A stretch of 64,000 nt of DNA from Haloglomus litoreum (GTDB taxonomy: Archaea; Halobacteriota; Halobacteria; Halobacteriales; Haloarculaceae): positions 434,001-498,000 of the forward strand of contig NZ_CP119988.1 of assembly GCF_029338515.1 (NCBI RefSeq). Direction: 5' to 3'. Numbering within the stretch: position 1 is the first letter of the stretch; each line of letters opens with the position of its first letter. Positions 48,688 to 59,778 of the stretch are shown here, in pieces. A program made the translations under genes and the position numbers. The notes under the pieces were generated by a model. That model worked only from the letters and a program-made list of their open reading frames with translations. It was not told the DNA's origin and did not search any database.

Positions 48688-49500
48688 CTAACTGCTGAAA
48701 TCAATATCGTCAGGCTCAATTAACATCATAGAGGCCCCTTCCTCCTCACCGACAGGATCTCCAATTCGCCCCCTTTCTGCTCCCGAATCGATGGCGTCCC
48801 CTATATCTAATTCACCATCCATTTCAATATCGTGAAAACTCCCGAACCAGAATCCAAACGGGTTCCCAGTCACGTCGCTGAATAACAACCAGAACTCTAT
48901 TGCGACTTTATCTGAGTCCCACTCTCGGTAGATACGCTGCATTACCTCGGAGAATGGGGCCTCGTATCCTCCCGATCCCATCGAAAGGGGCTTCATTTTG
49001 ATGGTTGCTTCAAATTGAACGCCATCGTCGCCTTCCTCAATACGGCTTCCAGAAAGATTGGGTTCTCCACCATCGGTGAGGGTTCCTGTGTGACGAGTTA
49101 AGGGGTTCCATCGTGGAACCACAGCAGTCCCTTGTCGTTCGTACCCTTTCCTAAACTGCCGCTCCCCATCTTCAGACTCCGTTTGTTCGTACACTACACA
49201 TTGAATGTGGAGATTCTCTGCAGGGCCATTACCTCTGTTCGTGATCCTAGTTATGAGCTTGTCTGCCTCTCCTCGAATTGACTCTCGGGCGAGTCGAGGC
49301 TGGTGATTCGCCGCCATTAGGTCGGTCTGGCGATTCATCAACCGATTCTGTTGTCTCTGTATTTTGTTCTGTTCATCCTGAATATTCTTCATTCGCCAAT
49401 AAAGTATAAACAATCCAATCGTCACTAAAAGTGAAATTATATCGGTGAATCTAACATTCCAGAAGTCTGGAGGAAGCGTCTGGAGAATCGTCGAATCCAT
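48688..49500 (-). CDS. Membrane-anchored hypothetical protein (270 aa)
   Basis: MDSTILQTLPPDFWNVRFTD, then a single hydrophobic helix IISLLVTIGLFILYWRM near residue 25, then a short coiled-coil-like stretch NIQDEQNKIQRQQNRLMNRQ and a large cytoplasmic or surface beta-rich domain. AT-rich DNA with unusual codon use compared with the first 20 kb. No family recognised; topology resembles small membrane effectors found in defence islands, but that is only an impression. Confidence 0.6.
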   Translation of the reverse strand: MDSTILQTLPPDFWNVRFTDIISLLVTIGLFILYWRMKNIQDEQNKIQRQQNRLMNRQTDLMAANHQPRLARESIRGEADKLITRITNRGNGPAENLHIQCVVYEQTESEDGERQFRKGYERQGTAVVPRWNPLTRHTGTLTDGGEPNLSGSRIEEGDDGVQFEATIKMKPLSMGSGGYEAPFSEVMQRIYREWDSDKVAIEFWLLFSDVTGNPFGFWFGSFHDIEMDGELDIGDAIDSGAERGRIGDPVGEEEGASMMLIEPDDIDFSS

Positions 49501-50000: not shown

Positions 50001-50029
50001 CTATGAGACTCGGCAACACGGGTTGGGGC

Positions 50030-51031
50030 ATGACTGACGATCTTCAGGGCACTGTCACAGAGGCCCAGGAGTATCTGGACTCACGGGATGGGGGTGCGGA
50101 ATTGAACGAGGCTGAAACGAGGCACGGAATCATCGACCCACTCCTGACGGCGGTCGGGTGGCGCCCGATCGACATCCGGCACGAGTACGACGTACAGATG
50201 GGTTCTGCCACGAAGAAGGTCGATAGCGCCCTTGCGACAGGAGACCATCCCGACGTGTTCGTCGAGGCGAAGGCAGCAGCTAAGGACCTGAACACAACCG
50301 ACGTCGACCAGCTCAAGAGCTATATGGTCCAGGAATGGGTCCAGTTCGGGCTCTTGAGCAACGGTATCTCGTTCGAGCTGTACTACCTCGTCCCGGGTGG
50401 GGAGGACGCGCCGACGATTACCTTACTTGCCCAGGAACGCCTCGACAGCCTGGTCGATAGTCCAATCCCCGAGATAGTGGATCGGGAGCACATGGCCTCA
50501 GGGCACGCCGAAGACCGGGCGGACGACCTATTGCAACTCGACACCGTTCGGACGTGGCTCAAGCGTCGTCCCGATCGCGTGGAAGCCGCATTACAGGCAG
50601 TCGGCTGTCCGCAGCCGGACGTGGAGCGATTCCTCGGTAATCTCTTCGGACGAACGGAAACCTCGTCATTCCGCTATACCGTGGAATTGTCAGTTGGTGG
50701 GGCACCGGTTCGCGTCGGTGGGGACAGTCAGAGCGAGGCGATGGCACAGGTCGCGAAGTATCTGGACCGGGAACATGGCCTGCTGGGGAAGGTGGAGCTG
50801 CCGTTTCTGGGCCGGTCAACGAAGATTCCACTGCTGAATGAGGGGCGGCCAGATGAATGGAGACGGTCTGATGATTATCCCTCCGAATACCGTTCGCATG
50901 AGCAACTCCGAGGGAACGTCTATCTCTACACCAGCCTGAATTCTCGGGGAAAGCGGAGCAAAATCAGCGAACTCTGTGAGGTCTGTGGACTGGGGGAGCC
51001 GGAATTCAACGACGCCTGGGATGGCTCGTGA
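50030..51031 (+). CDS. Type I restriction HSDR_N-like nuclease domain protein
   Basis: 333 residues from ATG at 50030. NEAETRHGIIDPLLTAVGWR, KKVDSALAT, DVFVEAKAAAKDL form the PD-(D/E)XK nuclease core of HsdR N-terminal type (D ... E-X-K); VQEWVQFGLLSNGISFELYY follows. The rest is not recognised. Stand-alone HSDR_N proteins occur often in haloarchaeal mobile regions. The nuclease residues appear intact. Divergent from the Orc1 remnant. Confidence 0.8.
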   Translation: MTDDLQGTVTEAQEYLDSRDGGAELNEAETRHGIIDPLLTAVGWRPIDIRHEYDVQMGSATKKVDSALATGDHPDVFVEAKAAAKDLNTTDVDQLKSYMVQEWVQFGLLSNGISFELYYLVPGGEDAPTITLLAQERLDSLVDSPIPEIVDREHMASGHAEDRADDLLQLDTVRTWLKRRPDRVEAALQAVGCPQPDVERFLGNLFGRTETSSFRYTVELSVGGAPVRVGGDSQSEAMAQVAKYLDREHGLLGKVELPFLGRSTKIPLLNEGRPDEWRRSDDYPSEYRSHEQLRGNVYLYTSLNSRGKRSKISELCEVCGLGEPEFNDAWDGS

Positions 51032-51772: not shown

Positions 51773-52588
51773 TTAGCTGACCTGTTCCTGTTCTCGACGG
51801 GAGACTTCTGGAATGCCCTCATCGAAGTGTTCTTCAATAATCGACTCGGCCTCTTCCGATCCTATTGACGTGATTTTCGCCATCCCTTCGTCGTAGTGTA
51901 CCTTCCGTGCCTGCTTCATGTTCCCGAGTTTGCTCTTCACAGTGTGGCCGTCTGCGCCGAGAATCCACTCTGTCAACTTGTCAGCCTCCACCTCGCGACC
52001 GATAGCGTGTAGGTGCACGAGAAGTTCCTGCTCCACGTCGAGTTCGCGGCTCATAATGACTCGCTTCCCATTATAGCTATCAATATACGGATTCAGCGGC
52101 TGCGACAGTTCCTCAATCAGTTCGGCAATTTGGTCAACCTCGTCCTCATCCCCGTAGATCCGGAGTAGTTCGGCCAACATCCACGTACATAGCCTCACCG
52201 CAGTCTGGGTGTCGGAGTGATTGACCGGGACTTCCAGATTGATATGGACGGAATCGCGGTTGTTCCGCATATCATATGCTACACGCATCGCTCGGGGGAT
52301 GCTGATACGGATCTCGTAGTCCAGATTTGCTGTGCCGTCGTAGTTGTTACTCTCGATTGTGTCGATGAAGGTCCCGACGCTCAGGTGATTTTGCACGCCT
52401 TCGTCAGTGTCGCTCAGAATGGCGTTGGCGAGGTTCTCGCAGAAGTTTCCGATGTGGGCTCCGGCCTCCTCGTACTTGCCGTTGGAGAGGTGAAACCGCA
52501 TGTCCTGATAGTGCCGTAGCAATCGGTTGACTGATTCTTGGTGAAGGCCGGCACCAATCAGCTGCTCGCGAACGAGCTCGACGCTCAT
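51773..52588 (-). CDS. Probable HEPN-domain protein with C-terminal winged helix
   Basis: 271 residues from ATG at 52588. Helical N-terminus; then RAMRVAYDMRNNRDSVHINL contains R108-X6-H115, the HEPN RNase R-X4-6-H pattern, with WMLAELLRIYG after it, as in AbiJ/Abi-like proteins where R-N-X-R-X-X-X-H recurs. The C-terminal half (KRVIMSRELDVEQELLVHLH, then DGHTVKSKLGNMKQARKVHY) looks like a winged helix. Last gene of an operon with an XPB-like helicase; its ATG overlaps the preceding stop. HEPN proteins are RNases in abortive infection systems. Confidence 0.62.
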   Translation of the reverse strand: MSVELVREQLIGAGLHQESVNRLLRHYQDMRFHLSNGKYEEAGAHIGNFCENLANAILSDTDEGVQNHLSVGTFIDTIESNNYDGTANLDYEIRISIPRAMRVAYDMRNNRDSVHINLEVPVNHSDTQTAVRLCTWMLAELLRIYGDEDEVDQIAELIEELSQPLNPYIDSYNGKRVIMSRELDVEQELLVHLHAIGREVEADKLTEWILGADGHTVKSKLGNMKQARKVHYDEGMAKITSIGSEEAESIIEEHFDEGIPEVSRREQEQVS

Positions 52589-52980
52589 CCGTTCAACCCT
52601 TCGATGCGACCGAGGGCTTTTGGGAGGCTCTCTGCGACGAGCTTCCACTCGCCGCTCTCGTCGTCCTTCTCGACGATGTGGTCGTCGTTGAGCCCATTCA
52701 TGAACTTCCGAACCGTGCTATCGTCGACATCAGCCTTCGAGTAGAAGTAGTCGTATGGGAGCGTGGGCGTATCGGCTTTTCCGCCCTCGAAGGCGTACCG
52801 TCGCCCGATGAGGTGAATCAGAATACGTTCCCTCCAGGGGGCGTCTTCGAAGTCGTCTTTTAGGCCAATTGATCCGTCTTGGAAGATACGGAACAATCTG
52901 GCAGCTTCGTCGAAGTGGCTCTCGAGGAACGACTCTGGGTCAGCAACCATCTCCTCGTTGATGCGGTCCTCAAGCCCCAT
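52585..52980 (-). CDS. Winged-helix protein of the helicase operon (131 aa)
   Basis: MGLEDRINEEMVADPESFLE, then RERILIHLIGRRYAFEGGKA, SKADVDDSTVRKFMNGLNDD, HIVEKDDESGEWKLV. The middle is a small winged helix. It overlaps the next gene by 4 bp and the previous by 11 bp. No known family; three such small proteins follow each other. Confidence 0.65.
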   Translation of the reverse strand: MGLEDRINEEMVADPESFLESHFDEAARLFRIFQDGSIGLKDDFEDAPWRERILIHLIGRRYAFEGGKADTPTLPYDYFYSKADVDDSTVRKFMNGLNDDHIVEKDDESGEWKLVAESLPKALGRIEGLNG

Positions 52981-53368
52981 CAGCCATCACCTCCTCAACC
53001 ATATCGAGACCGTCCATAGTGAGCTTCCGAACCGTAGACTGCCCCTCCTTTCCATCACGCATCACCCAGCCATTCTCCTCGCAGGCGTTGAGTACGTCGC
53101 TCATGTTCGCCGGCAGGTTCATCCGGCAGGTGCGATATCCTTCTTCGATATCCCCTGTGGTGAAGCGGTCTTGGTTCTCGTATTCCTCGAGATAGTACGC
53201 GATTCCAGCAGCACGCTCCTTGTGCGTGCTGGGGTCGAATTCACGGATGAATGACTGCATGTCCGTCGCTTCATTCGCTGCCCCTGGGTTCTCCTCCAGT
53301 TTCGCCTCAAGTGCAGCAACGCGCTTTTTTAGATTCTCGATTTCGTCTTGAAGTTCGCTCTCACTCAT
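52970..53368 (-). CDS. Coiled-coil plus winged-helix protein of the helicase operon (132 aa)
   Basis: MSESELQDEIENLKKRVAAL then EAKLEENPGA is a short coiled coil, after which RFTTGDIEEGYRTCRMNLPA and NACEENGWVMRDGKEGQSTV form a winged helix. It may form dimers or bind the helicase. Three bp separate it from the preceding gene. Family not recognised. Confidence 0.65.
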   Translation of the reverse strand: MSESELQDEIENLKKRVAALEAKLEENPGAANEATDMQSFIREFDPSTHKERAAGIAYYLEEYENQDRFTTGDIEEGYRTCRMNLPANMSDVLNACEENGWVMRDGKEGQSTVRKLTMDGLDMVEEVMADGA

Positions 53369-53371
53369 GAT

Positions 53372-53758
53372 TCAATCCTCTGCGAGGAATTCTTTCGCTT
53401 TCTCCAGATTGACTGACGGGAGCATGTACTCGCCATCCTCGCTACGGAGAATCCCTTCATCGTCGAGGTCGCGGACAGAGGGGTATACAGTGCCCTTCTT
53501 GACGCCACTCATGGAGCTGATATCAGACGGTGTGACCCATTCATCGTCGGCCATGCCGAGTTCGTGCAGTGCCTTTTGCGCCATGAGCGCGACAACAATC
53601 TTCCGCTTCGAATTGAGGTCGTTGTACCTCTCGTTCGGGATGAGGTCCCCGCTGTCTTTACCGATTTGAGCGTACCTGCCGACCGTTTCCGCGAGGAGTT
53701 CTTCGTTGAGCGCCTCCTCATCAACGAGGAGATCTTCTAATGTCGATTGCTCCGACAT
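53372..53758 (-). CDS. PadR-like winged-helix protein of the helicase operon (128 aa)
   Basis: MSEQSTLEDLLVDEEALNEE, then VALMAQKALHELGMADDEWV and SSMSGVKKGTVYPSVRDLDD EGILRSEDGEYML. A PadR-like winged helix in the second half. It follows the helicase by 126 bp, and the gap has AT-rich TAAGAATTATGTGTATGG in gene direction about 30 bp before the ATG, so it may have its own promoter. Possible regulator of the operon. Confidence 0.68.
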   Translation of the reverse strand: MSEQSTLEDLLVDEEALNEELLAETVGRYAQIGKDSGDLIPNERYNDLNSKRKIVVALMAQKALHELGMADDEWVTPSDISSMSGVKKGTVYPSVRDLDDEGILRSEDGEYMLPSVNLEKAKEFLAED

Positions 53759-53884
53759 ATGCGGGCCTAGATGTAGCCATACACATAATTCTTACTTGGG
53801 GCTTGGCTACCATCTGATATCTGCAACGGTTTAAGTTAGATAGGTGGAAGATAGAAATCTGCATTCAGATACAAGCCTCAAGGG

Positions 53885-55810
53885 CTACTCTAATTCTGCG
53901 CTCCTCTTACTGATATCAATCCCTTTCTCTGCTAAGTACTGGGTACTCTCTCGTCCCCAGTCTTCTTCTCCAGATCCCTTAGTGAGAAGGACGTACACCT
54001 TTGAATCACCGAAAGGACGCATCGTACGGCCTGCACGCTGTCCTGTTTGTGCGCGGGATGCCCCTCGTGTAGAGGCGAGAATCGCAACTTCTGCGTCGGG
54101 TAGGTCGATGCCTTCATCTCCAATTCTCGAAATGATTAGGCTGTCGAGATTGCCGTCTCTGAATTGTCGGTATCGTTCCTCGCGTTCGTCGTGTGCCGTT
54201 TCACCGTAGATGAAGGGGATTCCTAGTTCGCTGGAAAGTTCCTTACCCTGATCCACCCAATCAACAAATACGAGAGTCTTCTCCTCAGAATGCTCCGTGA
54301 GCAGTTCTCTGACGACGCTTGCTTTCGCTGGGTTTTTCGCTGCTTCGATGAGTTTCTGGCTGCCTTCTGCCTGCTGATACCGCTCTCTGGCCCGTTCGGA
54401 CGCCCATGGGACCATCAGAAGTTCCACATCCGGCTGGGAGACCCATCCCTCGGCGAAGAGAGAGCCCCAGTCTGTTCCGACTGGCGGCCCGATGAGTGTG
54501 TAGATCTCCTTGGCGTCGCCGCTCTCACGGATGGGTGTCGCGCTGAGGCCCAACCGTGCTTTTGACTGAATCTCTCGGAATCGCTTCCAGGTACTCGCGA
54601 CCGAGTGGTGGCATTCGTCTGCGATGACGAGCCCCCAATCTCGCTCTTGGAACAGTTTCCGGTGCCGGCTCATCGCGGCCGTGTCGTATGTGGCGATAGT
54701 AACCGAGCGGATTTTCTTCTCGCCTCCGTGGTATTGGCCGATATCGTAGGGTGTCAGGGTTGTCTTCTCGGCCAGCTCGTCTTCCCACTGCTGGGCAAGT
54801 TCTCGCGTCGGAACGAGAATGAGAGTCTCGCCACCGATTGCTTCCATCGAGGCGATGGCGGCGACTGTCTTACCGGAACCTGACGGGCCGACAAAGACGC
54901 CGGAACGACGCTCTAGGAAGTGGTCAACCCATTCGCTCTGATAGTCTCGCAACTCGAAATCATCGTTCAACTCGATATGGAGTGTCTCTCCATCCTCGAG
55001 CCGCCGTTGATCGATAACGGGGTAGCCTTCTTCGTAGAGGCGCTCTTTCACGCCTGCTTCGCCGCCGTTCCGGACACGGAGCTTTGTGTCCGAAAGGAAC
55101 CTCGTGTAGTGCGTATTGTGTTCGAGCTTTCGCTTAGCAACGTTCTCGAACACTTCAGAATCATTCGCCTCAAGGACGGTGATTTCTCGTCCCTCAGAGT
55201 CGATTTCGGTCCGGAGATAGAACTGGTGTGCCCGCTGCCAGTCGTCCTGGATTCGTGACTCGAAGCCGCCATCCCATCTCTCCTCTCCGACGACTAACTT
55301 CAGCTCGTCACGGTACTGCTCAAAGTCGTCGTATGGGGCGTTCCAGACGTCTTGCTTTCCGAGTTTGTAGAGATACGAGTCCCCAGTTGAGTCTACGAGA
55401 TGGGCTGCTTGAGAGAGGATACTACGGGTTTGCTGTGCAGGCTTGTCCACGGCAATTTCCCGGCGGCTCGGGAAAAACAGAACGCGCTCATCGGAAGATT
55501 GCGTCGGCGCAATCTCTTTCTGAACCTCCGTTTCCGGCGGTGCCATCGGCTCACCAGAATCAAGACTCGCATGCTGCTCCAATCCAGAGGGGTAGTATAT
55601 GATGGCCCCTCCTCCGACCTGCCTTTCCTCCAAAATTCCAGAGCGGGATTGACTCTTCAGGAACTGGCGTGCTCGTTCTCGAGAACAGTTTACCCGATCC
55701 GCAATCCACCTCGACGTTACGACGGGTGTCACCTTGAGCTGGTTGACTACCGCTTCCTCAAAACGTTCTGCTGGGTAGCCCCGGTTGACCTCTGTCGAAT
55801 GATTAGACAT
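53885..55810 (-). CDS. XPB/SSL2-like DNA helicase with N-terminal winged helix
   Basis: 641 residues. N-terminal HTH (VVTSRWIADRVNCSRERARQ) then an unrecognised 200-residue domain; helicase core from about 285: Q-motif FELRDYQSEWVDHFLERRSG, Walker A GPSGSGKT (308-315), ECHH box VIADECHHSVASTWKRF, SATPIRESG, and motif VI SRAQTGQRAGRTMRP. It matches the XPB/Ssl2 superfamily-2 group used in phage-defence and repair. Upstream are two 14-bp inverted operator-like sites. It is first in an operon with three winged-helix and one HEPN-type protein. Confidence 0.85.
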   Translation of the reverse strand: MSNHSTEVNRGYPAERFEEAVVNQLKVTPVVTSRWIADRVNCSRERARQFLKSQSRSGILEERQVGGGAIIYYPSGLEQHASLDSGEPMAPPETEVQKEIAPTQSSDERVLFFPSRREIAVDKPAQQTRSILSQAAHLVDSTGDSYLYKLGKQDVWNAPYDDFEQYRDELKLVVGEERWDGGFESRIQDDWQRAHQFYLRTEIDSEGREITVLEANDSEVFENVAKRKLEHNTHYTRFLSDTKLRVRNGGEAGVKERLYEEGYPVIDQRRLEDGETLHIELNDDFELRDYQSEWVDHFLERRSGVFVGPSGSGKTVAAIASMEAIGGETLILVPTRELAQQWEDELAEKTTLTPYDIGQYHGGEKKIRSVTIATYDTAAMSRHRKLFQERDWGLVIADECHHSVASTWKRFREIQSKARLGLSATPIRESGDAKEIYTLIGPPVGTDWGSLFAEGWVSQPDVELLMVPWASERARERYQQAEGSQKLIEAAKNPAKASVVRELLTEHSEEKTLVFVDWVDQGKELSSELGIPFIYGETAHDEREERYRQFRDGNLDSLIISRIGDEGIDLPDAEVAILASTRGASRAQTGQRAGRTMRPFGDSKVYVLLTKGSGEEDWGRESTQYLAEKGIDISKRSAELE

Positions 55811-55914: not shown

Positions 55915-56165
55915 TCATCGCCTCTCCGATCCGCCCCTCGGTCGGTTCGGCGAGATACGGCTCGCCGAGTAATCACTCCCTCCGCTGACGGCCATCATCG
56001 TCCGGACATCGACCTGCCGCTCGACAAGATGATACGTCGCCCACGACCGCTGAAGATCGTGGTGGACGCTTCCTGACGACACTCGATTGGGCGGCAGCCT
56101 GGGCTGCAGAAACTTCTTCATCGAAGGGGTCGCCAGTGGGGGCATGCCGAACAGGCCGCCGACTC
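55915..56165 (-). pseudogene. Integrase C-terminal remnant (direct repeat of the downstream integrase)
   Basis: Frame HHDLQRSWATYHLVERQVDV then RTMMAVSGGSDYSA matches the end of the integrase at 59182-59778. A missing four-base string in place of GATCGC and a frameshift spoil the tail (SRISPNRPRGGSERR). About 160 bp align with 59190-59353. The restriction-modification gene lies between the two copies. Confidence 0.8.
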
Positions 56166-56205: not shown

Positions 56206-59163
56206 ATGACTGAATATCCAAACCCTGAGGCAGACTTCCACAGTCGGCTCTACGTCCGGCTCGCGGACTACCTGGACGCAACGCCGGATGCGCCGTTCTC
56301 CGAGGTCAGCATCGAGGAGAACACGGCGGGTGGACGGGCCGATATCCTGGTCGATAGCCACGAGGTCGGAAGTGTCGTTATCGAGGTCAAGCGTACCGAC
56401 GTGAATCCGCGGTCGAAAGACGTGATTCGCCAGGCCCGAAACTACGCGGATGCCGTCGGAGCCGACTTCTTCGCAACCTGCAACGCGAACGACTTCTTCC
56501 TCTTCGACTACCGTGGTGAATTTGAGGTCCGCAACGTCGATTTCTACTATCTCAATCTCCGCGGCCAGACTCTCTCGGACTCGATTCCCGAGATTCTGAA
56601 CACGGTCGTCCACCTCTACCAGGAGAACCGGCTCCCACAGCAGCACGAGCGCGAACGAATCGTCGGAATACTCCGGAGCTTCCATTCATCAGTCTGGCCC
56701 ACGCTGAAGTACCTCGCTGGCCGAGCGTACGAGAGCAACGAGCAGTTCATCCAACTGTTCGATACCTGGGTCCGTGAGAACGATTATGTCGGCCTTCCGG
56801 AGGACAAGCAGCTCGAACTGGCCGCGAAGCAGTACGCGTATCTCCTTACGAATCGGGTCCTCTTCTACGAGGTTGTTCGTGAGCGGACTCCGGAGCCGAT
56901 CAGTACGGAGAGCGGCTTCCAGTTAGACTCGCTCATTGGCGAGGCCTCGATTGATGTCCTCGAGGACCACCTTTCGCGAAAGTTTGAGGAAATCATCAGT
57001 GAAGTCGACTATGAGCCGATTTTCGACCCAGATACCGGGTTGTTCGAGGCCTTCCCCCACAACACGAAGACACGGCGAGCGATGGCGGACCTCATCGAGA
57101 ACATCGAGCACCGCTCGATTACCGATATTGATGAGGACCTGCTTGGAGAGATATACGAGGAACTCATCCCTGCAGAGGAGCGGAAAGCCCTGGGACAGTA
57201 CTATACCCATCCGAAAATCGCCGAGACGATCGTCCGATGGGCGCTCCCCGACGATGCGAACCATCAGGGCCTCGACGATGCCGATACGCTCCCCCGCGTG
57301 CTCGATCCGGCTTCCGGGAGTGGTACCTTCACCGTCGAGGCGTATCAACAGGTTGCGAATTTTTCCGGGGCAGCTACTCACCAGGACATCGTCGACCACC
57401 TCGTCTCGGTCGATATCAATCGGTTTCCACTGCACCTCACCTCGCTCAACATCGCGAGTCAGAACATCGAGGAAGAGACGGACAGCATCCACGCCTACCA
57501 TTCCTCGTTCTTCGACATCGATCCGGAGACGGATCCGCTGATTTCGAGCCGCCTCTCGAAATCCGAGACCTCGCTCGGAGAACTCGGGACGTTCGATGCC
57601 GTCGTTGGGAATCCACCCTACATCCGCCAGGAGAATCTCTACCCCTCGAAAGAGCACTTCCGGGCGCATCTGAAAGCGTTCGGCCGATCTGACCGGACCA
57701 CGTACTACGATGGAAGCAAGAGTCTGAGTAAGAAGAGCGACGCCTACATCTACTTCGTGACGCACGGGGCGAAATTCCTTCGTGAGGGTGGCCGGCTCGG
57801 TTACATCATCCCGACGAAGTGGATGATGACCGATTACGGAAAATCGTTCCAGGAGTTCCTCTTCGACCACTTCAAAATCGAGGCTGTGGTCGGGTTCAGC
57901 GTTCGTGCTTTCGAGGACGCCCTGGTGGATACGGCGCTCCTCCTACTTGAGCGGTGTGAGGATGCGGAGGAGCGAGCAAACACGGTCACGAAATTCATCC
58001 GACTCAAGAAGTCGATGGAGGTTGAGCACATCGTCGACACGGTTCGATTCGGCGAGGAGATTCCGGAGGGGGATGACATGCTCATCAAGACCCGCCCGAA
58101 TTATCGGACCGTCGCCATCCAGCAATCGGATGTCGCCGAAATCGAGTCCGGCAAGCTCGGGCACTTCCTCAGTGTTCCCCAGGATATCATTCGGCTCGTC
58201 GAGCATCCGAAGCTGATTCGCCTCTCGGATATTGCCAACGTCGCGTACGGCAACAAGACTGGTGCGAACCCGTTTTTCTTCCTCGATAGCGAGGACCTCG
58301 ACGAGTGGCCGATCGACGAGCGGTTCCTCACGCCCGCGATTAAGAGCATCCGCGATACCGAATCGCAAGAGGTCACGGCGGAGACGACCGACCGATATCT
58401 CCTCGACGTCCACGACTACGTTGCTGAGGTTGAACGGACCGGAGGTCTCGCAGATGGCTCGGACCTAACCGAACGCGTCAAGCGCGCTCTGAAGCGCGAT
58501 GGGTACGATACGCTGGCGTCGTACATAGAGGCTGGAGAGCGTGAGGGCTACCACGAACGGAACACGTGTGCAGCACGTGAGGTCTGGTTCAACCTGGGCG
58601 AACTGAAGACGCCGGAGATTCTCCATCCGAAGTTCTTCAACGACCGCATCATCCCGATGTGGAATCGAGATCGGTTAGCGCCGAGTAACGCCGTCGACGG
58701 CATCTACCTCGACGAGGGAATCGATGACGAGGTGATGATTGGGATCCTGAATTCGACAGTCCACAAGGTGATGCTGGAATGTTGGGGGCGGGCAGAGGGC
58801 GGTGGGGCGCTCCAGTTGATGACCTACGAGATGGAGTCGCTCCCACTCGTCGACCCAGCCCTCATCGAAGGCGACCAACGCCAGCGGTTCAAAGCGACGG
58901 TCCGTCGCTTGTTGGACGGTGATGACGGTGCACAGGATGCGCTCGACGAGATTATCCTCGACGCCCTGGGAGTCGATTTCTCGGTCCAAGAACTCCAGGA
59001 GATGCAACAGACCATCGCTGAACGGCGGATTCGGAGCGGCGATGAGGTGGAAGTGATGATGGAACGAATCGACGAGTTCGACGATGTCGGGACGCAGTCG
59101 TTCGCCACCAGCGTGAGTGACGATGACGAGAATACGACGCTCGGGGAATTCGTCGACGGATAA
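56206..59163 (+). CDS. Type IIG restriction-modification enzyme (nuclease + N6-adenine methylase)
   Basis: 985 residues. PD-(D/E)XK nuclease near the start: GGRADILVDSHE (D46) and VVIEVKRT (E60, K62). Linker helices follow, then the gamma-type methylase with motif I LDPASGSGTFTVEAYQQV (about 366) and motif IV FDAVVGNPPYIRQE (about 469). The C-terminal half should recognise the DNA target. This is the Eco57I/MmeI-like arrangement, one polypeptide for cutting and adenine modification. Catalytic residues look intact. A single gene without partner subunits. Confidence 0.88.
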   Translation: MTEYPNPEADFHSRLYVRLADYLDATPDAPFSEVSIEENTAGGRADILVDSHEVGSVVIEVKRTDVNPRSKDVIRQARNYADAVGADFFATCNANDFFLFDYRGEFEVRNVDFYYLNLRGQTLSDSIPEILNTVVHLYQENRLPQQHERERIVGILRSFHSSVWPTLKYLAGRAYESNEQFIQLFDTWVRENDYVGLPEDKQLELAAKQYAYLLTNRVLFYEVVRERTPEPISTESGFQLDSLIGEASIDVLEDHLSRKFEEIISEVDYEPIFDPDTGLFEAFPHNTKTRRAMADLIENIEHRSITDIDEDLLGEIYEELIPAEERKALGQYYTHPKIAETIVRWALPDDANHQGLDDADTLPRVLDPASGSGTFTVEAYQQVANFSGAATHQDIVDHLVSVDINRFPLHLTSLNIASQNIEEETDSIHAYHSSFFDIDPETDPLISSRLSKSETSLGELGTFDAVVGNPPYIRQENLYPSKEHFRAHLKAFGRSDRTTYYDGSKSLSKKSDAYIYFVTHGAKFLREGGRLGYIIPTKWMMTDYGKSFQEFLFDHFKIEAVVGFSVRAFEDALVDTALLLLERCEDAEERANTVTKFIRLKKSMEVEHIVDTVRFGEEIPEGDDMLIKTRPNYRTVAIQQSDVAEIESGKLGHFLSVPQDIIRLVEHPKLIRLSDIANVAYGNKTGANPFFFLDSEDLDEWPIDERFLTPAIKSIRDTESQEVTAETTDRYLLDVHDYVAEVERTGGLADGSDLTERVKRALKRDGYDTLASYIEAGEREGYHERNTCAAREVWFNLGELKTPEILHPKFFNDRIIPMWNRDRLAPSNAVDGIYLDEGIDDEVMIGILNSTVHKVMLECWGRAEGGGALQLMTYEMESLPLVDPALIEGDQRQRFKATVRRLLDGDDGAQDALDEIILDALGVDFSVQELQEMQQTIAERRIRSGDEVEVMMERIDEFDDVGTQSFATSVSDDDENTTLGEFVDG

Positions 59164-59181: not shown

Positions 59182-59778
59182 TTACACACTCATCGCTTCC
59201 CCAATCCGCCCCTCGGTCGGCGCGGCGAGATACGGCTCGATCGCCGAGTAATCACTCCACCCGCCGACGGCCATCATCGTCCGGACGTCGACCTGCCGCT
59301 CGACGAGATGATACGTCGCCCACGACCGCCGGAGGTCGTGACTCGACACTTCCCGCCACCGATCGGGCTGAGAAGCCTCCTCGGCAACCTCTGCAGCGGC
59401 CTCCTTCACCCACCGGCGCACACTCGATTTCGAGACCTGCACCCACGCCTCACCAGTCTCCCGCCCGCGCTCCCGTGAGAACCGCCGGACGTTCGCCTCG
59501 ACCGGCTCGGGCATCCAGGCGTCCCGCACCTTCGGCGCCCCACCCGAGGTGTTCTTGCCCCGGACCTCGAGGAACCAGCACTCACCTTTCTCACTCCAGC
59601 GTAACTCGGCATCCCCAGGATACGCCACCTCGTCGGCCCGCAACCCACACCGCCCCATCAGCTGCAGCGCAATCTCTCGTTCCCAATCCGACCGAGCCGC
59701 GGCCGCTTCGAGCTGGTCGAGTTCCTCACGATCGAGCCAGCACTTCGTCACGGCCCCGCCATCGTCCAGGCGAACCAT
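59182..59778 (-). CDS. Tyrosine recombinase, short form (198 aa)
   Basis: Arg in GRCGLRADEVAYPGDAELRW, H-X-L-R in VSSHDLRRSWATYHLVERQV and Tyr183 in SDYSAIEPYLAAP. The N-terminal core-binding domain is nearly absent, as in some haloarchaeal mobile-element recombinases. It lies convergent with the restriction gene, 18 bp apart. A degraded copy of its C-terminus is found at 55915-56165. Probably mobilised the enzyme gene. Confidence 0.88.
   Translation of the reverse strand: MVRLDDGGAVTKCWLDREELDQLEAAAARSDWEREIALQLMGRCGLRADEVAYPGDAELRWSEKGECWFLEVRGKNTSGGAPKVRDAWMPEPVEANVRRFSRERGRETGEAWVQVSKSSVRRWVKEAAAEVAEEASQPDRWREVSSHDLRRSWATYHLVERQVDVRTMMAVGGWSDYSAIEPYLAAPTEGRIGEAMSV

Follow-up and report, generated by a model that had tools for sequence, protein, structure and literature searches.

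What is a helicase of the XPB type doing beside a predicted ribonuclease (RNase) and a row of small winged helix-turn-helix (wHTH) proteins in a haloarchaeon? The question is raised by an operon of Haloglomus litoreum, within the 64,000 nucleotides analysed here (contig NZ_CP119988.1, positions 434,001 to 498,000; hereafter the window), which encodes an XPB-type helicase, three wHTH proteins and a HEPN-like protein. On balance, we lean towards a conditional RNase module of the abortive-infection type, in which a motor and wHTH sensors would gate a HEPN effector. A broader proposal, to which we give slightly less than even weight, is that the operon represents a new class of immune module, found in archaea and partly in bacteria: conserved wHTH adaptors would connect exchangeable DNA motors (HerA or a dedicated XPB clade) with HEPN RNases that are exchanged as well, and RNA cleavage would be triggered when the motor acts on foreign DNA. 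Both start from direct observations: the order of the genes and its conservation, the HEPN-like fold, the conservation of its motif, a distinct XPB clade, and the exchange of motors and effectors between loci.

The HEPN-like protein and its wHTH neighbors

A preliminary description of this DNA had given the gene order as helicase, three wHTH genes and a HEPN-like gene, and all five open reading frames (ORFs) were found in that order at 55810-51773 on the minus strand. Its statement that the last four genes are 3 base pairs (bp) apart or overlapping was borne out, with a 3-bp gap between wHTH-1 and wHTH-2 followed by overlaps of 11 bp and 4 bp. The gap between the helicase gene and wHTH-1 is 126 bp, so co-transcription of the helicase with the small genes is only putative.

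The R108-X6-H115 motif attributed to the HEPN-like protein was also located as described, with R111 between the two residues. In an alignment of 20 relatives with about 20-60% identity, R111 never varies, and conservation reaches 90% or more at R108, H115, E51, D126 and E140; one degenerate relative (L020) has lost the motif. Fold prediction, suggested earlier as a check on the HEPN helices, returned a HEPN-like fold. Two AlphaFold models were obtained, with predicted local distance difference test (pLDDT) scores of 84 and 90, the latter showing helices at residues 17-35, 39-58, 91-109, 124-145 and 148-161, and the R108-H115 motif is modelled where helix 3 ends and in the loop after it. The motif matches the published Rx4-6H rule for HEPN proteins (PMC3710099), reading R108-N-x5-H115 with a six-residue spacer and a polar residue after the arginine, and E51 provides an acidic residue in helix 2 (39-58). 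HEPN RNases (Abi, HEPN-T, DUF4145, Csm6; PMC3710099) likewise have the helical fold, an Rx4-6H motif closing helix 3, a polar residue after the arginine and an acidic residue in helix 2. Unlike these, the window protein is unmatched by the Pfam, NCBIfam and PADLOC models tested, carries a C-terminal wHTH, and has recurrent wHTH neighbors.

In Foldseek searches of the PDB, the full-length model gave mostly wHTH matches, and a search with the HEPN domain only was used instead. Its natural-protein matches were mostly members of the HEPN superfamily (2hsb, 1wol, 1o3u, 1ufb, 3o10, 2q00, 4nqf, AbiV, Csm6 and LinB), with target template modelling (TM) scores of 0.68-0.70 and E-values of 0.1-0.7 for 2hsb, 1wol and 3o10. 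A HEPN profile found no match among PDB sequences, and the HEPN-wHTH protein has no above-noise match in Pfam, PADLOC, NCBIfam or PHROG. The HEPN identity of the 271-residue protein is supported by sequence and structural model, and we infer that it would act as an RNase through R108/H115.

The wHTH neighbors are equally anonymous: none of wHTH-1, wHTH-2, wHTH-3 and the HEPN protein is named by Pfam, PADLOC or NCBIfam, and on the plasmids inspected the RefSeq labels for the small components are hypothetical or helix-turn-helix proteins. With PADLOC, wHTH-2, wHTH-3 and the HEPN protein have no matches, wHTH-1 has marginal wHTH matches, and the helicase matches as generic superfamily 2 (SF2) only. 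The earlier label of wHTH-1 as PadR-like holds as to the wHTH fold, but its likeness to TrmB/MarR is as strong, the Pfam matches being weak (TrmB 1.7e-4, PadR 0.039). Profile comparison with hhalign identifies wHTH-1 and wHTH-3 as paralogues (97%) and links wHTH-2 to its Archaeoglobi counterpart (98.5%). Two corrections to the earlier gene list are needed: the HEPN protein carries a wHTH domain at its C-terminal end too, and a fourth wHTH-type gene, referred to as the accessory gene, lies nearby on the plus strand (Table 1).

The XPB clade and the recurrence of the cassette

The helicase is a true relative of XPB (Pfam ResIII, 2.9e-25, and ERCC3_RAD25_C, 2.2e-21; E-value about 1e-41 against XPB/RAD25 in the PDB), and scores 351 bits with the NCBIfam equivalog for DNA-repair XPB (NF045503), below the cut-off of 610. 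XPB homologues are nearly universal in the haloarchaeal genome set used here (373 of 391 genomes, a sample of the class, with relatives' gene calls made in this analysis and distances between genes judged inside stretches of 20 kilobases (kb)). Beyond the window helicase, only eight homologues exceed 860 bits with an alignment that begins at the N-terminus; the helicase of G124, which an intein interrupts, was added to this set. A tree of 24 sequences separates the resulting 10-member clade, which includes the window helicase, from other haloarchaeal XPBs with support of 100/100. The intein in the G124 helicase gene (L051, 5654-8986) contains a LAGLIDADG endonuclease domain.

A HEPN-type gene lies within about 5 kb of the helicase in eight of the ten clade members, and belongs to one of three families: HEPN1 in the window, G120, G088 and G319; HEPN2 in G373 and also in G124, there as a fusion with wHTH-3; and HEPN3, with the motif MRNPSGGHG, in G063 and G356. 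These three families are absent at all seven other XPB loci inspected (five controls, G026 and the second XPB of the source genome), where other HEPN types were not sought. An XPB-Bax1 pairing was considered at this second XPB, where the adjoining 481-residue ORF gave no match in Pfam and probably represents an antisense reading frame.

The preliminary description had made its proposal depend on a neighborhood conserved across genomes, and in the genomes examined the set does recur. The full five-gene operon is present in the same order in G120 (L014), with identities of 69, 67, 52, 69 and 62%; because this genome belongs to another haloarchaeal family, a chance arrangement of the five genes is excluded. 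Across the haloarchaeal set, the wHTH-3 family is found in 17 genomes, the cassette of three wHTH genes in 13, HEPN relatives in eight, and the accessory family in 19. The order wHTH1-wHTH2-wHTH3 is kept in 11 cassettes (window, G120, G319, G124, G067, G268, G309, G333, G009, G294 and G024; the third gene is split into two ORFs in G319), while the G076 cassette is spread over two contig ends and that of G380 is rearranged. An ATPase gene lies no more than a few kb from each of the 13 cassettes: XPB in four (window, G120, G319 and G124) and a HerA-like one in the other nine. At the HerA loci, the position of the window's HEPN gene is usually taken by an AAA-associated/wHTH protein of 325-329 residues; the HEPN1 family lies next to HerA in G076, and a HEPN2 protein near HerA in G009. 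Three related haloarchaeal elements (L045, L049 and L050) have long synteny around a HerA/wHTH cassette, with PolB-like and other common neighbors.

Relatives of the HEPN protein extend to other Halobacteriota (profile search) and, by pattern scan, to Geoglobus, Archaeoglobaceae, Thermoplasmatota, WOR-3, Aminicenantes and Alphaproteobacteria including Hephaestia caeni. The Archaeoglobi operon reads wHTH-wHTH-wHTH2-HEPN-HerA, the alphaproteobacterial loci read wHTH2-wHTH3-HEPN as in the window (one of four has no called wHTH2), and Thermoplasmatota, Aminicenantes and WOR-3 have one wHTH gene and a HEPN gene. Two sphingomonad wHTH-HEPN loci (L081 and L082) both adjoin a uvrA-like gene, and are probably one orthologous locus. 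Among viral sequences, IMG/VR yielded relatives of neither the HEPN protein nor the helicase, and phage records yielded no HEPN relatives.

The HEPN2 signature, [RK]-x2-[GA][ND]-x2-AH, is reminiscent of DUF4145, and neither HEPN2 nor HEPN3 has a Pfam match. In other haloarchaea, HEPN2 proteins consist of a wHTH2-type domain fused to HEPN2 (a link made by hidden Markov model, HMM), and alignment shows the fusion partner in G124 to be wHTH-3. Because fused proteins often interact, the wHTH adaptors probably contact the HEPN protein. Across these loci, the adaptors persist while the motor (XPB or HerA) and the effector (three HEPN-type families) are exchanged. The accessory family adjoins the XPB/HEPN set in G120 and G088 and XPB/HEPN2 in G373, and a fragment of it lies beside the HEPN gene in N. 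pharaonis PL131; outside the XPB and HerA loci, an accessory-type wHTH gene and a wHTH-HEPN2 fusion form a two-gene unit (L096, L102, L105 and L106).

Coordinates and surroundings of the operon

Table 1. Features of the operon and its surroundings (window positions)
Feature	Position	Strand	Details and evidence
XPB-type SF2 helicase, 641 residues	53885-55810	minus	N-terminal wHTH-like region at about residues 20-75; helicase core at residues 285-630
wHTH-1, 128 residues, TrmB/MarR/PadR-like	53372-53758	minus	Weak Pfam matches, family alignment, cassette synteny
wHTH-2, coiled coil and wHTH, 132 residues	52970-53368	minus	Family alignment, hhalign, HMM link to wHTH-HEPN2 fusions
wHTH-3, 131 residues	52585-52980	minus	hhalign to wHTH-1, alignment with G124 fusion
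HEPN-wHTH protein, 271 residues	51773-52588	minus	AlphaFold models, Foldseek matches, 20-sequence alignment
Predicted HEPN catalytic motif R108-N-N-R111-D-S-V-H115 (Rx6H)	52244-52267	minus	Conservation, model position, published rule
C-terminal wHTH of HEPN protein, residues 185-254	51827-52036	minus	Model secondary structure; Foldseek matches to Zalpha/MarR folds
Probable accessory wHTH protein, 216-221 residues	51109-51759	plus	Convergent with operon; family recurs beside related loci
HSDR_N_2 PD-(D/E)XK-type protein, stand-alone	50003-51031	plus	Pfam 2.4e-11
270-residue protein	48688-49500	minus	Predicted membrane anchor
Type IIG/Eco57I-like methylase gene	56206-59163
Direct repeats, about 150 bp (90-92%)	55915-56061 and 59190-59340		3' end of tyrosine-integrase gene

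The source genome is a single contig of 4.7 megabases, and the operon lies in a part of the window with a G+C content of 0.54-0.56, as against 0.71-0.75 across the first 20 kb. The preliminary description had drawn on the adjacency of restriction-type genes; these are present, but are weak evidence, since the type IIG/Eco57I-like methylase gene is bracketed by copies of an integrase 3' end and therefore looks like a separate insertion. The repeats point to a 3.3-kb integrase-linked unit, containing the gene, that arrived by insertion or arose by duplication, and a restriction-module link was set aside. On the other side of the operon, the HSDR_N_2 gene lies between the accessory gene and the gene for the 270-residue membrane protein. 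Relatives of the latter adjoin cassettes in L046 (G380) and L100 (a plasmid of Halorubrum sp. CBA1229), and it may be a further optional component.

Related systems, alternatives and a possible mechanism

The conceptually closest described group is that of the HerA/FtsK capture anti-invader systems, related to DndFGH (PMC10853773), which likewise combine a translocating ATPase, wHTH DNA-binding proteins and an effector nuclease, have ATPases repeatedly exchanged between systems, and occupy mobile neighborhoods. They have, however, Orc/Cdc6 with a restriction endonuclease or DndFGH, none of which is present in the window operon with its HEPN effector and XPB-type motor; HerA appears only in the relatives. 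The phosphorothioate-linked haloarchaeal defence PbeABCD (PMC6459918) likewise groups an SF2 helicase with small proteins in one multigene locus, and PADLOC models of PbeA match the core of the window helicase (7.6e-35). In that system, by contrast, PbeA has a PLD/HKD nuclease, PbeC is an ABC ATPase and PbeD is DndE; membership was rejected, with no PLD match in the helicase and the DndE and ABC-ATPase families unmatched among the operon proteins and tested neighbors. HEPN-MNT toxin-antitoxin systems (including PDC-M05) are small operons with a HEPN protein, but the window operon has wHTH proteins and an ATPase in place of the nucleotidyltransferase, a protein that Pfam did not find among the scanned neighbors. 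A full-text search for HEPN with XPB in the PMC library, which covers few subscription papers or preprints, returned a single paper, on a thaumarchaeal genome, where each term occurs once, and the main text of a 2026 survey of archaeal immunity has HEPN only with PDC-M05 (PMC12988326). The earlier judgement that the system is undescribed agrees with the lack of a name for it in Pfam, PADLOC, NCBIfam, PHROGs and searchable papers. We place the operon with multi-gene ATPase/wHTH/nuclease conflict systems, outside any named system.

Several observations weigh against a gated HEPN RNase with an immune role. The Foldseek E-values for the HEPN domain, about 0.1 to 1, are not significant by themselves, and HEPN2 and HEPN3 are putative HEPN families assigned by motif only. 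In seven of the nine HerA cassettes of haloarchaea, the place of HEPN is taken by a tandem-wHTH "AAA-associated" protein or by no recognised protein, and no HEPN was recognised near the clade members G115 and G126, whose surroundings resemble a provirus or plasmid. The bacterial trios have no adjacent ATPase, so the motor is not universal. PADLOC models recognise no small component, and no clear defence island was seen in the relatives' surroundings inspected.

The alternative that fares best, itself unlikely, is a stabilisation module of the toxin-antitoxin type, in which a HEPN toxin would be held by overlapping wHTH proteins acting as neutralisers and operon repressors, and the ATPase would be an accessory or a mere neighbor. 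HEPN toxins with antitoxin partners are known (HEPN-MNT; PMC3710099), and this arrangement would suit the alphaproteobacterial trios and the loci of Thermoplasmatota, Aminicenantes and WOR-3, where just one wHTH gene accompanies HEPN with short gaps or overlaps; but each of the 13 haloarchaeal cassettes has an ATPase beside it, the operons of Archaeoglobi include one too, and three or four wHTH genes exceed the needs of a toxin-antitoxin pair. Somewhat less probable is a role in the replication, transfer or partition of plasmids or proviruses, in which XPB or HerA motors would act with several wHTH DNA-binding proteins and HEPN would be a regulatory or stability part. Plasmids or islands do carry many of the relatives, close to Orc1/Cdc6, PolB, ArdC-like or MCM genes, and the two HEPN-less clade members have provirus- or plasmid-like settings. 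Yet the neighbors differ between elements, so that the cassette behaves as cargo, its catalytic R/H motif is strongly kept, and the largest contig, presumably the chromosome, holds some of the copies. A DNA-repair or transcription-stress module, with HEPN replacing the repair DNA nuclease Bax1 that partners archaeal XPB (PMC7293015, PMC7672443), has little probability despite the true XPB relationship and the shared pairing of helicase and nuclease, as HEPN domains are RNases and not DNA-repair nucleases, the helicase falls in a separate clade, most relatives use HerA as motor, and the cassette is patchy where haloarchaeal XPB is near universal.

The patchy distribution, the plasmid and island locations and the exchange of effectors seen here are features that defence genes typically show. 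In the conditional RNase module that we favour, the wHTH proteins would bind DNA and/or keep the HEPN-wHTH protein in a resting complex, and the XPB-type ATPase, with its own N-terminal wHTH-like region, would load on or translocate along foreign or abnormally structured DNA. On meeting its target, the ATPase would remodel the complex, and the HEPN domain, released or dimerised, would cut RNA via R108/H115, halting virus production or host growth. The motor would be replaceable, with XPB in the window clade and HerA in most relatives. That the proteins form a complex, what triggers it and that it acts against viruses are what we infer here, the last being a plausible part of the preliminary description.

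Archaeal antiviral systems other than CRISPR and restriction are poorly known, and according to the 2026 survey, nearly a third of archaeal genomes have no antiviral system found (PMC12988326). If the proposal is true, the operon would stand for a new candidate class missed by defence databases, with adaptors spanning haloarchaea, Archaeoglobi and Alphaproteobacteria, and directly testable in haloarchaeal hosts. An RNase effector would thereby gain a link to an XPB paralogue, and XPB, a helicase of repair and transcription, would have been recruited to immunity.

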